Positions 2,227 to 57,145 of a stretch of 64,000 bases of DNA are shown one piece after another (position 1 is the stretch's first letter; every line of letters begins with the position of its first letter). A model generated the notes under the pieces. It saw nothing but the letters and a program-made list of their open reading frames with translations, did not search any database and had not been told where the DNA came from. The position numbers and the translations under genes were made by a program. Source of the DNA: Rikenellaceae bacterium (GTDB lineage Bacteria; Bacteroidota; Bacteroidia; Bacteroidales; Rikenellaceae); assembly GCA_017463585.1 (NCBI GenBank), contig JAFTOX010000014.1, positions 1 to 64,000 of the forward strand, given 5' to 3'.

Positions 2227-2820
2227 ATGGAGAGAGATATTATGACAACCGAATTGGAGCAGATGCGCGAACAGATCACGCTGCTGCGTTTGAAACTCGA
2301 CAAAGAGGCTATCGTCAATGAGCGCCTGCTGCGCCGAGCAATGCACGACAAGGTGCGAGGTATCACGCGCGATAATACAGCGATGATTATCATCGGCACG
2401 CTGGCAATTCCCTACTCCTTCCTCGTGTTCGACTATCTGGGCATATCGCTCTGGTTCAGCATTGCGACTGCTCTGTTGCTGATTGTGTGTGTCGTGGCAA
2501 CGTGGTGGGGTCAGCGCGGTCTGCACGCCGACGAACTGCTTGATGGCGATGTGGTGTCGGTCGGTAAGAAGGTGCTGCGATTGAAACAGATGAACGACCG
2601 CTGGCTGTGGTTCGCCATTCCGATGTTGATTCTGTGGCTTGCGTGGCTCTTTTGGGAGGCCTATCAGCAGGTTGGTGGCACGCCCTTGTTTCGGGGATTT
2701 GTTACGGGCGGTGTTATTGGCCTTATCCTCGGCCTTATCGTAGGCGGCAAGGTGCGCTATCGCACTCAGCGTCGTGTGCGCGAGATCTTGGCCCATATCG
2801 AGGAATTGACCCGCGAGTAA
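2227..2820 (+). CDS. Four-TM membrane protein with N-terminal coiled coil, partner of ECF sigma factor
   Basis: A 197-aa protein. Residues ~8-45 form an amphipathic, heptad-like helix with repeated Leu. Two hydrophobic pairs follow (TAMIIIGTLAIPYSFLVF / LWFSIATALLLIVCVVAT, then WLWFAIPMLILWLAWLFW / GVIGLILGLIVGG) and the C-terminus is basic. The start is set at the ATG at 2227; another ATG is at 2242. Its position directly after the sigma gene suggests it may control that sigma factor, but it has no zinc-binding or FecR motif. No named family recognised. Confidence 0.75.
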   Translation: MERDIMTTELEQMREQITLLRLKLDKEAIVNERLLRRAMHDKVRGITRDNTAMIIIGTLAIPYSFLVFDYLGISLWFSIATALLLIVCVVATWWGQRGLHADELLDGDVVSVGKKVLRLKQMNDRWLWFAIPMLILWLAWLFWEAYQQVGGTPLFRGFVTGGVIGLILGLIVGGKVRYRTQRRVREILAHIEELTRE

Positions 2821-2841
2821 TTGCGCATTGGGGAGCGCATA

Positions 2842-2875
2842 AAGCCCATTCGAGTAGCTTCGGATGGGCTTTTTT
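2842..2875 (+). terminator. Terminator of the sigma-factor operon
   Basis: Arms AAGCCCAT/ATGGGCTT around a 14-nt loop, then TTTTTA. Confidence 0.85.
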
Positions 2876-2986
2876 AGTGCTGTTTCGTGGCAAAATGGGG
2901 GTCGGTTCACCGCCCGTTGGGGTCGATTCAGCGGTTGAAACGGACGTTTCGACGGAGGGGTGGAGTGTTTTTGCACATCGAGTATG

Positions 2987-2994
2987 TACCTTTG
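2987..2994 (+). promoter_or_regulatory. Promoter -7 element (TACCTTTG)
   Basis: TACCTTTG 63 bp before the start of the secreted repeat protein; an upstream TTTG at 2970-2973 could serve as the -33 box, though the spacing is short. Confidence 0.6.
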
Positions 2995-3057
2995 TACCAA
3001 GAAAACAACTCGACAAAAGTTGAAAACAGAATATTAACCACTTAAAAATTTACGACT

Positions 3058-3882
3058 ATGAAGACGTTATTGAGAGTATTAGCAGTAGCAATGGCGGCAC
3101 TTTTCACCGTCGATGCAGCATCGGCCGCAACCGCAACGAGCGCAGCGACCGTCAAAGTAACCATCGGTCGTCGTAGCGAGCGTGTAGCCTTCGAGGCTGA
3201 GCGTATGACCCGCTATATGACTATGGCGTTAGATCTTACAGCGCGTCAGGAGTCGAAACTCTTCTATCTGAATTTGGAGTGGGCTGACCGTTGCGATCGT
3301 TATACCGATCGAGTGGATCTTGATATAATCGTCGATCGTTGGTACTATGAGTACACCCGCGATTTGGACGTGATTCTGAACAATCGTCAGATGCGTAAGT
3401 GGCGCAACCGCTACGGCCACCGCTTTGGAGATTACAATCGTCCCCGTGCTTCGATCTCTATCAACATTGGTGCTCGCCCCCACGTTCACATCGGCGGCGG
3501 ACATAAGAATCCCCACAAGGATCCCCACGTTCGTCCCCACACTGCGCCCCACAAGGATCCGCACACCAAGCCGCACGTAGCGCCTCACAGAGATCCGCAC
3601 ACCAAGCCTCACACGGTACCCCACAATGGTAACGTAGGCAACGGTGGCAATCGCCCCTCGAACAACAAGGGCAACGTAGGCAACGGTGGCAACCGCCCCT
3701 CGAACAACAAGGGCAACGTAGGCAACGGTGGCAACCGCCCCTCGAACAACAAGGGTTCGTATCGTTCGTCGAGCAGTTCGAACAGAGGCAACAACAACGC
3801 AACTCGCAACGGTGGCTCGACCCGCAGCTCGAACAGCTCGAACAACTCGCGCGACAAGGGCACCAGCAGCCGTGGCAGATAG
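3058..3882 (+). CDS. Secreted His/Pro-rich repeat protein
   Basis: 274 aa. A Sec signal peptide (MKTLLRVLAVAMAALFTVDA) is followed by a ~95-residue helical domain containing LTARQESKLFYLN, reminiscent of LTxxQ (CpxP/Spy-like) periplasmic domains. About 12 Pro-His-x units follow (~residues 147-190), then three perfect 14-residue repeats (GNVGNGGNRPSNNK, 3628-3753) and a Ser/Asn/Arg tail. The His-rich block could bind metal ions, as similar tracts do; this is inference. No enzyme motif. Own promoter and terminator. Confidence 0.75.
   Translation: MKTLLRVLAVAMAALFTVDAASAATATSAATVKVTIGRRSERVAFEAERMTRYMTMALDLTARQESKLFYLNLEWADRCDRYTDRVDLDIIVDRWYYEYTRDLDVILNNRQMRKWRNRYGHRFGDYNRPRASISINIGARPHVHIGGGHKNPHKDPHVRPHTAPHKDPHTKPHVAPHRDPHTKPHTVPHNGNVGNGGNRPSNNKGNVGNGGNRPSNNKGNVGNGGNRPSNNKGSYRSSSSSNRGNNNATRNGGSTRSSNSSNNSRDKGTSSRGR
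3628..3753 (+). repeat. Three tandem 42-bp in-frame repeats
   Basis: Units 3628-3669, 3670-3711 and 3712-3753 are nearly identical and encode three 14-residue Gly/Asn repeats inside the His/Pro-rich protein. Such arrays are prone to length variation by slippage. Confidence 0.9.
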
Positions 3883-54790: not shown

Positions 54791-55876
54791 TTACAGACGT
54801 TTGTAGTGGCACATCAGTAACTTGCCCTCGTCGTCGCGCAGGTGCATACCGCCACCCAGACAGTAGCGGAACATCTTGCAGTCGCCGCACTCGTCACGAC
54901 GTGCCCACTCGCGGTTGCGGAATGGTTCGTAGCGCTTGCTCCACACCTCCCAGAAATTGTCGTGGTAGATGTTGCCCTGATCGAAATTCGAGCGAATCGA
55001 GGTGCAACCCGACATCGCGCCATCGACACGTATCGAGGCGGTTGTAACGCCAGCCGAGCAGTAGTAGAACGTGTCGCGCACCTCGGTTTCGTAACCGCCC
55101 AAAAAGCCTTCGCAAGCGTACGTGAGGTCGATTCGACCCTCGCGGCGGGTGCGTCGGATAAACTCCATCACCTCGCGGAATTGCTCGTCAGTCAAGCGTA
55201 GGGTGGGGTCGTCGGCAGCGCGCCCAACGGGGAAAATCGTAAAAATGCGCCAATGTTTAATTCCGTTTTCGATGAGCAACTCCTTCATCTCTTCGAGGCG
55301 TGGCACGAGCGAGCCCGTTACGCAGGTTACGGCGTCGTAGGCCACCGTTCCGTCGGCGGCAATCATTCGCAGGGCGGCCAGAGCGCGTTCGTAGCTGTGC
55401 GGATTGCGACGAATGTAGTTGTGTTGCTCCTCGAAGCCGTCGAAGCTGACCGAGATCGAATGCAGACCTGCACGCAGCAGACTCTCGAAGCGTTCGGGCG
55501 TGAGTGCCAACGCATTAGTAACTATTCCCCACGGGTAGCCACGTCGGTAGAGCTCCAATCCCGCGCGCTCCAAATCTTTGCGCACGAGCACCTCGCCACC
55601 CGAAATGACGACCATCACCTTGTGCGGATCGACGTGTGGAGTGATCTGCTCATCGACCACACGCAGAAAGTCCTCCAACGGCATATCGGGCACGGTCGCC
55701 TCGGCGCGACAATCGCTGCCGCAGTGGCGGCAGTTGAGGTTGCAACGCAGCGTGCACTCCCAAAAGAGCGTGCGCAGAGGGTGCTCCTCGACGTTGCGTT
55801 TGTAGAGTTGTGCGAAGAGCTCCAAGCCGAGTCTTTTGCGCAGACCAAGTCGGCGTCCGTTCCGATCGTTACTCAT
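54791..55876 (-). CDS. SPASM-domain radical SAM enzyme paired with lipoproteins (rSAM_w_lipo type)
   Basis: 361 aa. Radical SAM cluster motif C-x3-C-x2-C (Cys45, Cys49, Cys52 in CNLNCRHC), with SGGEVLVRKDLE as the glycine-rich SAM motif. The C-terminal SPASM domain has Cys spread through YYCSAG, SGCTSI, CGDCKMFRYC and LMCHYK for auxiliary 4Fe-4S clusters. SPASM enzymes mostly modify peptides. I recall a Bacteroides radical SAM family (TIGR04133) defined by a partner lipoprotein family (TIGR04134); this locus fits it. The start at 55876 is 10 bp after the small MYGVP lipoprotein. Confidence 0.88.
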   Translation of the reverse strand: MSNDRNGRRLGLRKRLGLELFAQLYKRNVEEHPLRTLFWECTLRCNLNCRHCGSDCRAEATVPDMPLEDFLRVVDEQITPHVDPHKVMVVISGGEVLVRKDLERAGLELYRRGYPWGIVTNALALTPERFESLLRAGLHSISVSFDGFEEQHNYIRRNPHSYERALAALRMIAADGTVAYDAVTCVTGSLVPRLEEMKELLIENGIKHWRIFTIFPVGRAADDPTLRLTDEQFREVMEFIRRTRREGRIDLTYACEGFLGGYETEVRDTFYYCSAGVTTASIRVDGAMSGCTSIRSNFDQGNIYHDNFWEVWSKRYEPFRNREWARRDECGDCKMFRYCLGGGMHLRDDEGKLLMCHYKRL

Positions 55877-55886
55877 TGTGCGGAAT

Positions 55887-56153
55887 CTATTCGTTATCAA
55901 TTACTTTGAGCGGATTTTCGCTCTGCTCAGGTTGTGCCTGCTCGCTCTGTTCGGTCGAGTTCTTGACAGCGCCCTCGCGGAACACCACGGGAGGCACGCC
56001 ATACATCAGCCTGATCTGCGGCATTTCGACCGTATCTTGTTGTACGGCAGGCTGTTCTTCGGGCTGTTCGGGAGCCTTTTGCTGGCGGGTCGAGGAGCAC
56101 GAAGCTCCGAAACCGAGCAGAGCCATCATTGTTGCTAAAACTTTATATTTCAT
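55887..56153 (-). CDS. Small lipoprotein with MYGVP motif, upstream of radical SAM enzyme
   Basis: 88 aa. Lipoprotein signal (MKYKVLATMMALLGFGASC, lipid Cys19), a Gln/Glu/Pro-rich linker, then PQIRLMYGVPPVVFREGA, with Met50-Tyr51-Gly-Val-Pro. The Met-Tyr-Gly-x-Pro core is shared with the two larger lipoproteins nearby. It is translated just before the radical SAM gene, from a minus-strand TACCTTTG at 56198-56205. Candidate substrate of that enzyme (inference). Confidence 0.82.
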   Translation of the reverse strand: MKYKVLATMMALLGFGASCSSTRQQKAPEQPEEQPAVQQDTVEMPQIRLMYGVPPVVFREGAVKNSTEQSEQAQPEQSENPLKVIDNE

Positions 56154-56197
56154 AGCTTTGCGGTATTAGCGATCGTAACGTTCCGACCACTTCAATA

Positions 56198-56205
56198 CAA
56201 AGGTA
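56198..56205 (-). promoter_or_regulatory. Promoter -7 element of the radical SAM operon
   Basis: Minus-strand TACCTTTG (CAAAGGTA on plus), 44 bp before the MYGVP lipoprotein gene. Confidence 0.65.
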
Positions 56206-56244
56206 CGCATTTTGCGCGAAAGTTGCGCATTTCCGAGCGAGAAA

Positions 56245-56694
56245 TTACTCTTGCGCCTCGTCGCTCTTCTCCTGCATTACGATCTGCTTTTCGAGCGATT
56301 TAGTTCCTTCGTACCACGCATCTTTGTCGCCCTTAGCCTCTACCTTGCTGAAATCGAGCTCGATTGTTTGCTCTTCGAACTCGCCACCGTTTGCCGTGCC
56401 ATCGACGTCCTCGACCGAGAGATAGAGTTTGCTTCGGGGCAAGGTTGTATTGCGAATCGTGTAGTCGCCATTTTCAAGACTCTGACTCTCTGCGATTTCG
56501 TATGGATTTGGATCGGTCGCGTCGTCTTGCAATGCGATTTTTATGCCTTTAATCGGATTACCGTCGGTGTCGCATACCTTGCCTTTAACCTCGTAGGTCG
56601 CCGAGGGCGTGCCGTACATATCAAGCCCACCACACCCAAATATCGGGATTGTAAATCCAAGAATCGACAACGATTTGGTAATGATTTTCTTCAT
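56245..56694 (-). CDS. Radical SAM-associated lipoprotein with MYGTP motif (lipo_with_rSAM type)
   Basis: 149 aa. Lipobox PIFGC (Cys21), then MYGTP at residues 26-30, only five residues past the lipidated Cys. A carboxypeptidase-regulatory-like beta domain follows (YEVKGKVCDTDGNPIKGIKI), ending with VDGTANGGEFEEQTIELDFS and a Lys/Glu tail. Paralogue of the next gene upstream, with long identical runs. Expected in the periplasm or on the outer membrane. Modification of the MYG motif is inference. Confidence 0.85.
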   Translation of the reverse strand: MKKIITKSLSILGFTIPIFGCGGLDMYGTPSATYEVKGKVCDTDGNPIKGIKIALQDDATDPNPYEIAESQSLENGDYTIRNTTLPRSKLYLSVEDVDGTANGGEFEEQTIELDFSKVEAKGDKDAWYEGTKSLEKQIVMQEKSDEAQE

Positions 56695-56707
56695 ATTCAG
56701 CTCTGTT

Positions 56708-57145
56708 TTAGTTCTCTTTCTCTTCGAGCACTATGTTTTGTTCGATCGAAAATTTGCCCGAGTACCACGCACCCTTGTCGCCCGTAGCCTCGACCTTGCT
56801 GAAATCGAGTTCGATTGTGCGCTCTGCGAACTCACCACCGTTCTCTGCGCCGTCAACGTCTTGTGCTACAAGTCGCAGTTTGCTGACGGGAAATGTCTGA
56901 ACGCTCGCGTCGTAAGTCCCATCATCAAGGCTAAATTTTCGTATAATAGGAATGGGCTCGGGTCCTGCAACATAAGTCTGAACTTCAACTTTAATACCCT
57001 TAATCGGGTCGCCGTCGGCGTCAAGCACTTTACCTTTGATCTCGTAATCAGCCGAAGGCGAACCATACATAACAGGTACTTGTTCGCACCCCACCAACGA
57101 GCCAAAGCCCAACACCGCCAAAAGCCAATAGATAAATCGTTTCAT
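56708..57145 (-). CDS. Radical SAM-associated lipoprotein with MYGSP motif (lipo_with_rSAM type)
   Basis: 145 aa. Signal peptide with LGFGSLVGC (Cys20) and MYGSP at residues 26-30, the same position as in its paralogue 13 bp downstream. The YEIKGKVLDADGDPIKGIKV and VDGAENGGEFAERTIELDFSKVEATGDK blocks are shared, so the pair arose by tandem duplication. The start at 57145 (MKRFIYWLLAVLG) is chosen for the signal peptide. No clear TAnnTTTG element upstream. Confidence 0.85.
   Translation of the reverse strand: MKRFIYWLLAVLGFGSLVGCEQVPVMYGSPSADYEIKGKVLDADGDPIKGIKVEVQTYVAGPEPIPIIRKFSLDDGTYDASVQTFPVSKLRLVAQDVDGAENGGEFAERTIELDFSKVEATGDKGAWYSGKFSIEQNIVLEEKEN

Follow-up and report, generated by a model that had tools for sequence, protein, structure and literature searches.

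A radical SAM/SPASM enzyme of the TIGR04133 family and proteins with an X-Tyr-Gly site form a conserved pair: such a protein lies beside the enzyme gene in 81 of 85 enzyme loci. The constant core of the site is Tyr-Gly, usually followed by x-Pro, and the preceding residue X is free. Judging from these sequence patterns, it is very probable that the TIGR04133 enzyme acts on the X-Tyr-Gly site and modifies it in some way. Our analysis also makes it fairly likely that this is a stand-alone splicease-type enzyme, which would excise tyramine from lipoprotein precursors before their export.

The window, i.e. the whole stretch of DNA analysed, comprises positions 1-64,000 of contig JAFTOX010000014.1 from a Rikenellaceae bacterium (GCA_017463585.1, draft genome of 2.1 Mb). 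Judged by the enzyme (70% identity), the nearest named relative of this gut bacterium is Alistipes. On the minus strand the gene order is lipoprotein A, lipoprotein B, small lipoprotein, radical SAM/SPASM enzyme and RluA-type pseudouridine synthase. The first four genes, their motifs with the residue numbers, and the LGF stretch in the signal peptides of all three lipoproteins are as the preliminary description had given them. The features are the following:

56708..57145, minus strand: TIGR04134 lipoprotein A, candidate substrate, 145 aa, lipobox Cys 20
57056..57070, minus strand: MYGSP of lipoprotein A, residues 26-30, putative splice site
56245..56694, minus strand: TIGR04134 lipoprotein B, candidate substrate, 149 aa, lipobox Cys 21
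56605..56619, minus strand: MYGTP of lipoprotein B, residues 26-30, putative splice site
56198..56205, minus strand: TACCTTTG, a weak match to the Bacteroidota -7 box TAnnTTTG (72 such matches within the window), possibly the promoter for the small lipoprotein and the enzyme
55887..56153, minus strand: small disordered lipoprotein, candidate substrate, 88 aa, lipobox Cys 19, lipoprotein signal with LGF
55992..56006, minus strand: MYGVP of the small lipoprotein, residues 50-54, putative splice site
54791..55900, minus strand: radical SAM/SPASM enzyme of the TIGR04133 family, starting with TTG at 55900 or alternatively with ATG at 55876; putative X-Tyr-Gly splicease-type enzyme
54784-53888, minus strand: RluA-type pseudouridine synthase, after the enzyme gene

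The family pair TIGR04133/TIGR04134 had been suggested for the enzyme and the three lipoproteins. This is correct for the enzyme, which scores 596.9 bits against TIGR04133 (597.4 in the genome search; the curated cut-off, a whole-protein score, is 425 bits), and for both large lipoproteins, with TIGR04134 scores of 92.5 bits for lipoprotein B and 91.5 bits for lipoprotein A (curated cut-off 39.8). The small lipoprotein has no family match in profile searches, TIGR04134 included; proteins of its type are also present at other enzyme loci. In the model of lipoprotein A (pLDDT 89.5), residues 14-30, motif included, are without regular structure, and residues 31-135 form a transthyretin-type beta-sandwich. 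Other proteins encoded around such enzymes, 275,408 residues in all, contain 53 YGxP motifs. At this background rate the three window lipoproteins, with 382 residues together, should contain about 0.07 YGxP; three are observed, which is more than chance.

The enzyme has Radical_SAM and SPASM domains (Pfam SPASM above its cut-off) and a CxxxCxxC at residues 45-52. Its SPASM domain contains six of the usual seven cysteines. The one that is lacking is the final Cys of Cx2Cx5Cx3C: the window enzyme has Gly343 in its place, and the whole TIGR04133 family is without it. The family has cysteines of its own, an invariant Cys255 and a nearly invariant Cys185, neither of which is general among PlpX types. 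The closest solved folds to the modelled enzyme (pLDDT 93.9) are SkfB, anSMEcpe and SuiB, with TM-scores of about 0.61-0.71 and 17-20% identity; a sequence search of solved structures returned distant radical SAM enzymes only. Against TIGR04103, which we take to be the PlpX family IPR026482, the enzyme scores 101.5 bits with a cut-off of 725, and this places it outside the family. Its score against TIGR03913 is 113 bits (cut-off 592).

That the enzyme and the motif-bearing lipoproteins form one system, as the preliminary description proposed, is borne out across genomes. One hundred loci were fetched, 85 of them with the enzyme. A strict scan (YGxP lipoprotein, same strand, within 4 kb) gave a partner in 69 of the 85, and reading of the remainder gave 12 more, where YGxP or Tyr-Gly sites had been missed because the lipobox was unrecognised, the protein was of signal-peptidase-I type or cytosolic, or the Pro was lost. 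Of the four enzyme loci without an X-Tyr-Gly neighbour, one is near a contig end. In a set of 70 loci from named genomes, a lipoprotein-like YGxP ORF is found on the strand of the enzyme in 52 as compared to one on the opposite strand, and permuted-motif controls gave 0-5. The named set spans Fibrobacter, Spirochaetaceae, Clostridia, Coriobacteriaceae, Erysipelotrichaceae and Lachnospiraceae, single taxon labels of which may be wrong since many are metagenome bins. The pair is present on a Treponema saccharophilum plasmid (complete record), with CYGMP at the lipobox. Clustering of the neighbours recovered the main lipoprotein family in 65 loci, all 80 copies lying on the strand of the enzyme at a median distance of 149 bases, and a coiled-coil lipoprotein family in eight loci. 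There is no other widely conserved neighbour in the 85 loci: the rest occur in at most nine loci with mixed strands, or in four loci, and a conserved transporter, peptidase or RRE neighbour was not found. The RluA-type pseudouridine synthase is not a conserved neighbour either; it had been regarded as probably incidental, and we rule it out as a component of the system.

The distribution of the two families over genomes agrees with the pairing. Among 295 sampled genomes of the order, TIGR04133 is above cut-off in 68 and TIGR04134 in 43. A wide occurrence of MYGxP lipoproteins in genomes lacking the enzyme had been named as the observation that would speak against the system. The outcome is in favour of it: TIGR04134 is above cut-off in 40 of the 68 enzyme-bearing genomes and in 3 of the other 227 (Fisher p ~2e-27, genomes being treated as independent of shared ancestry). 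As for the three exceptions, in one genome (G247) the enzyme is present below cut-off, in another (G199) the lipoprotein copy is at a contig end, and in the third (G263), which has no detectable enzyme, the TIGR04134 protein reads GNGSP, its Tyr being lost. The best 25 matches to a profile of the CYG class, in which X is the lipid Cys, are all from enzyme-bearing genomes, one of these matches being truncated at a contig end. The weak tail of that search over the order consists of a CarboxypepD_reg-like domain in proteins of about 1000 residues and is uninformative on the system. No Tyr-Gly partner is found near three divergent TIGR04133-like enzymes (L203, L204 and L205; 222-246 bits). These three adjoin what looks like a mutS2 gene.

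The MYGxP rule of the preliminary description is too narrow, and X-Tyr-Gly(-x-Pro) has to be put in its place. Met is one of many residues at X, among them E, V, C, K, M, L and A, and the Pro is nearly constant. No conserved partner residue was found within ten positions on either side of the motif in a conservation scan that was selected on YGxP and is informative for the remaining positions only. As a control for circularity, 62 TIGR04134 proteins were picked by whole-protein score alone. Of these, 51 have YGxP, nine have Tyr-Gly only and two have neither; Tyr-Gly is kept in 60 of the 62, and in 49 of 49 of those in enzyme loci. Loss of the Pro leaves Tyr-Gly intact.

These observations bear on the nature of the reaction, for which a modification or a crosslink at the motif had been suggested. 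A modification is favoured. It is unlikely, in our estimate, that the enzyme modifies X-Tyr-Gly by a reaction other than excision, be it a Tyr crosslink, a Tyr modification without backbone excision, or epimerisation. SPASM enzymes catalyse many reactions, and the nearest folds belong to the thioether maturase SkfB, the formylglycine maturase anSMEcpe and SuiB. The missing auxiliary-cluster Cys together with the family's own invariant Cys suggests that the chemistry may have shifted from that of PlpX. However, a crosslink would require a constant partner side chain, and there is none near the motif. Moreover, excision requires this very pattern, Tyr-Gly constant and X free, and a published enzyme of that kind shares the site.

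The bodies that carry the site are unrelated and have little in common but the site, which is present in 1-5 copies each. We distinguish six types of partner. In transthyretin-like lipoproteins, to which lipoproteins A and B belong, the site is 2-13 residues past the lipid Cys. In a second type X coincides with the lipid Cys (FQA-CYGTPQDF); these make up 24 of the 85 candidate substrates in the strict set. Small disordered lipoproteins, that of the window included, have a distal site, and coiled-coil lipoproteins have one to three sites (VYGSPE). Proteins of the signal-peptidase-I type (L092, L100, L102 and L110) would have QYG at the mature end. Finally, one partner (L113) is cytosolic and has three CIYGPPPGFDDDYREIDDVE-type repeats. 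The distance from the site to the lipid Cys ranges from 0 to more than 100 residues, and some partners are without a lipid anchor.

The signal peptides of the candidate substrates are unusually alike. LGF is found in 29 of 85 as compared to 3 of 97 other lipoproteins (p 2e-8), and LG[FIVL] in 34 of 61 non-CYG candidates and in one of the 24 CYG-class members, whose signal peptides share a conserved segment of their own with FQAC at its end. A leader role of LGF is supported by these sequences for the non-CYG class only. The same likeness, and the use of the lipidated Cys as X in one class, could mean that the enzyme uses the motif mainly for recognition and alters the lipoproteins elsewhere, e.g. 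at the lipobox Cys or another residue. We consider this very unlikely: the wide range of distances between site and lipid Cys and the partners without any lipid anchor argue against it, and the repeats of the site within single proteins resemble repeated targets. It is extremely unlikely that the motif serves structure or sorting, that the enzyme has another substrate and that the pairing is an inherited operon only. In favour of this reading, the large lipoproteins are one family that could be inherited together with the enzyme, and several TIGR04134 genes are distant from the enzyme in enzyme-bearing genomes. Against it, the same site occurs beside the enzyme on unrelated proteins from several phyla, the carriers of the site are its only widely conserved neighbours, and the opposite-strand and permuted-motif controls are near zero.

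We return to excision of tyramine as the preferred reading. The chemistry had been called undescribed, which does not wholly hold, as the published splicease, which cuts part of a tyrosine out of the protein backbone, acts at X-Tyr-Gly (PMC10533398, PMC11002830). According to this reading the four genes would be a small protein-maturation system. The cytosolic enzyme would act on unfolded lipoprotein precursors ahead of Sec export, reading X-Tyr-Gly(-x-Pro) and probably also part of the signal peptide, the latter as a leader. Part of the tyrosine would be cut from the protein backbone, with a predicted loss of 135.068 Da per site. The lipoprotein would then be exported and lipidated, bearing an electrophile (alpha-ketoamide) either in the flexible tether that joins the lipid anchor to the small beta-sandwich or in a tail that is disordered or forms a coiled coil. 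The displayed electrophile would most plausibly be a covalent protease inhibitor or a covalent attachment point; use of the product as a protease inhibitor is by itself doubtful.

Backbone splicing that yields beta-amino acids is known from cyanobacterial peptides, and alpha-ketoamides are known for protease inhibition. Spliceotide products are protease inhibitors (PMC11117315). If the splicease reading is true, common bacteria of the gut and rumen have alpha-ketoamides on exported proteins of full size that are anchored by a lipid, and a reactive, non-standard residue is probably displayed on their lipoproteins. A family whose name records an association only would gain a function, the sharing of one four-residue motif by unrelated lipoproteins would be explained, and RRE-free enzymes for protein labelling would become available. 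The reading also predicts a mass shift that could be found in existing proteomes; routine peptide searches would miss spliced sites because the backbone itself is altered. A broader statement is possible but falls short of probable: many Bacteroidota, and relatives in Spirochaetota, Fibrobacter, Firmicutes and other phyla, may splice their own surface lipoproteins by a stand-alone enzyme, with neither an RRE partner nor a RiPP leader and with the secretion signal in the role of the leader. In one branch the lipid-anchored Cys would become an alpha-keto-beta-amino acid, i.e. a membrane anchor carrying a covalent warhead.

The kinship of the enzyme was followed in trees. TIGR04133 groups with PlpX-, GDL- and KYGYP-type enzymes, apart from PqqE, MftC, NirJ, TIGR04053 and others, with support of 100/99, 100/99 and 99/98 in three tree samplings; the outgroup was restricted to the contents of the collection, the TIGR04133 stem is long, and AhbD, which scores nearly like PlpX, was left out. 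Firmicutes VYGPP enzymes are the sister clade of TIGR04133 (100/100). Several relatives in the neighbouring clade show no Tyr-Gly partner, and clade membership alone therefore leaves the chemistry unfixed. The splicease reading draws on the pairing, the lack of other widely conserved neighbours, the unrelated bodies with the same site, the fixed Tyr-Gly with free X, the published site, the tree kinship, the co-occurrence over genomes and the loss of the Tyr in the genome without a detectable enzyme. Counted against it are the low TIGR04103 score, the long branch, the partnerless relatives in the neighbouring clade, the missing PlpY, the differences in SPASM Cys, the tag contexts rejected by PlpXY and the three divergent enzymes without a Tyr-Gly neighbour. 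What the sequences show is the pairing with its conservation, the rule of a free X before Tyr-Gly, and the relationship to PlpX-type enzymes; that the site is modified, by tyramine excision and ahead of export, and what the product does, is inferred.

Further X-Tyr-Gly proteins were noticed beside related enzymes. Directly upstream of a TIGR04133-like enzyme in a Lachnospiraceae bin is a lipoprotein that has the VYGPP site five times (L295:2032-2484), and zinc-ribbon proteins without a signal peptide and with CIYGPPPV (L284:2171-2443 and L285:2175-2483) are upstream of such enzymes as well. At L170:1468-3596 (G145:C3, in the same order as the window) a PlpX-related enzyme extended at its C-terminus precedes a protein of 214 aa that contains six KYGYP(C) repeats and is likely a multi-site splicing precursor. 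A Methanosarcina bin (L292) has a 44-residue ORF (1678-1812) near a PlpX-related enzyme (2510-3601); it ends in PLYGVVRPLYGVPLK, resembling the published tag PIRPLYGLPI. In a Planctomycetota bin a 146-aa protein (L293:2027-2467) with the sites RYGV, KYGMP, KYGI and LYGVP is upstream of a PlpX-related enzyme. DUF1843-like peptides by GDL-type maturases (L166:1078-1251, L163 and L165) often have LYG or PYG near the start, with a variable Gly. A Nostoc plasmid enzyme of TIGR04103, i.e. the PlpX family, adjoins a Nif11 precursor ending in ALYGLPPELF.

Compared with known systems, the overall fold of the enzyme is like those of SkfB, anSMEcpe and SuiB, whereas substrates and reactions differ. The GDL-motif maturases of TIGR03913 are related enzymes, and an LYG or PYG lies close to the N-terminus of some of their DUF1843 peptides; these peptides do not keep the Gly constant, however, and there is no lipoprotein partner. 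By the curated cut-offs the window enzyme and both large lipoproteins are members of TIGR04133 (rSAM_w_lipo) and TIGR04134 (lipo_with_rSAM). The names of these entries record the association only and give no function; moreover, TIGR04134 does not cover the small lipoprotein, the coiled-coil, signal-peptidase-I and cytosolic partners, or the general X-Tyr-Gly rule. The literature searched, the scope of which excludes Scott et al. 2022 (Chem 8:2659), reportedly on peptides and proteins with ribosomal beta-amino acids and possibly already covering TIGR04133, makes no mention of TIGR04133, TIGR04134 or lipoprotein splicing.

The PlpXY system is compared last. PlpX works together with PlpY, a small partner (truncated RRE). 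Splice tags accepted by PlpXY include PIRPGYGLPI, and the tags read LYGLP or GYGLP (PMC10533398). The natural ketoamides bear Met and Leu side chains, and a RiPP leader is unnecessary (PMC10533398, PMC11002830). Many tag contexts are rejected by PlpXY (PMC10533398), so the motif alone may be insufficient. The likeness to PlpXY consists in a radical SAM/SPASM enzyme, an X-Tyr-Gly site with x-Pro, repeated sites per precursor and the nearest clade in the trees; the window has three X-Tyr-Gly sites of the kind that PlpX-type substrates carry. There are also differences. The TIGR04133 system has no conserved PlpY-like gene nearby in the 85 loci; a partner encoded elsewhere is conceivable. The Nif11/nitrile-hydratase leader is missing, and the substrates start with lipoprotein or other signal peptides. 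The substrates are mostly exported lipoproteins, as compared to small secreted peptides for PlpXY. Finally, TIGR04133 is without one SPASM Cys and scores far under the TIGR04103 cut-off. With a score outside the PlpX model, no PlpY, a secretion signal as the leader and a missing SPASM Cys, the TIGR04133 enzyme may work in a splicease-like way without belonging to the PlpX family.
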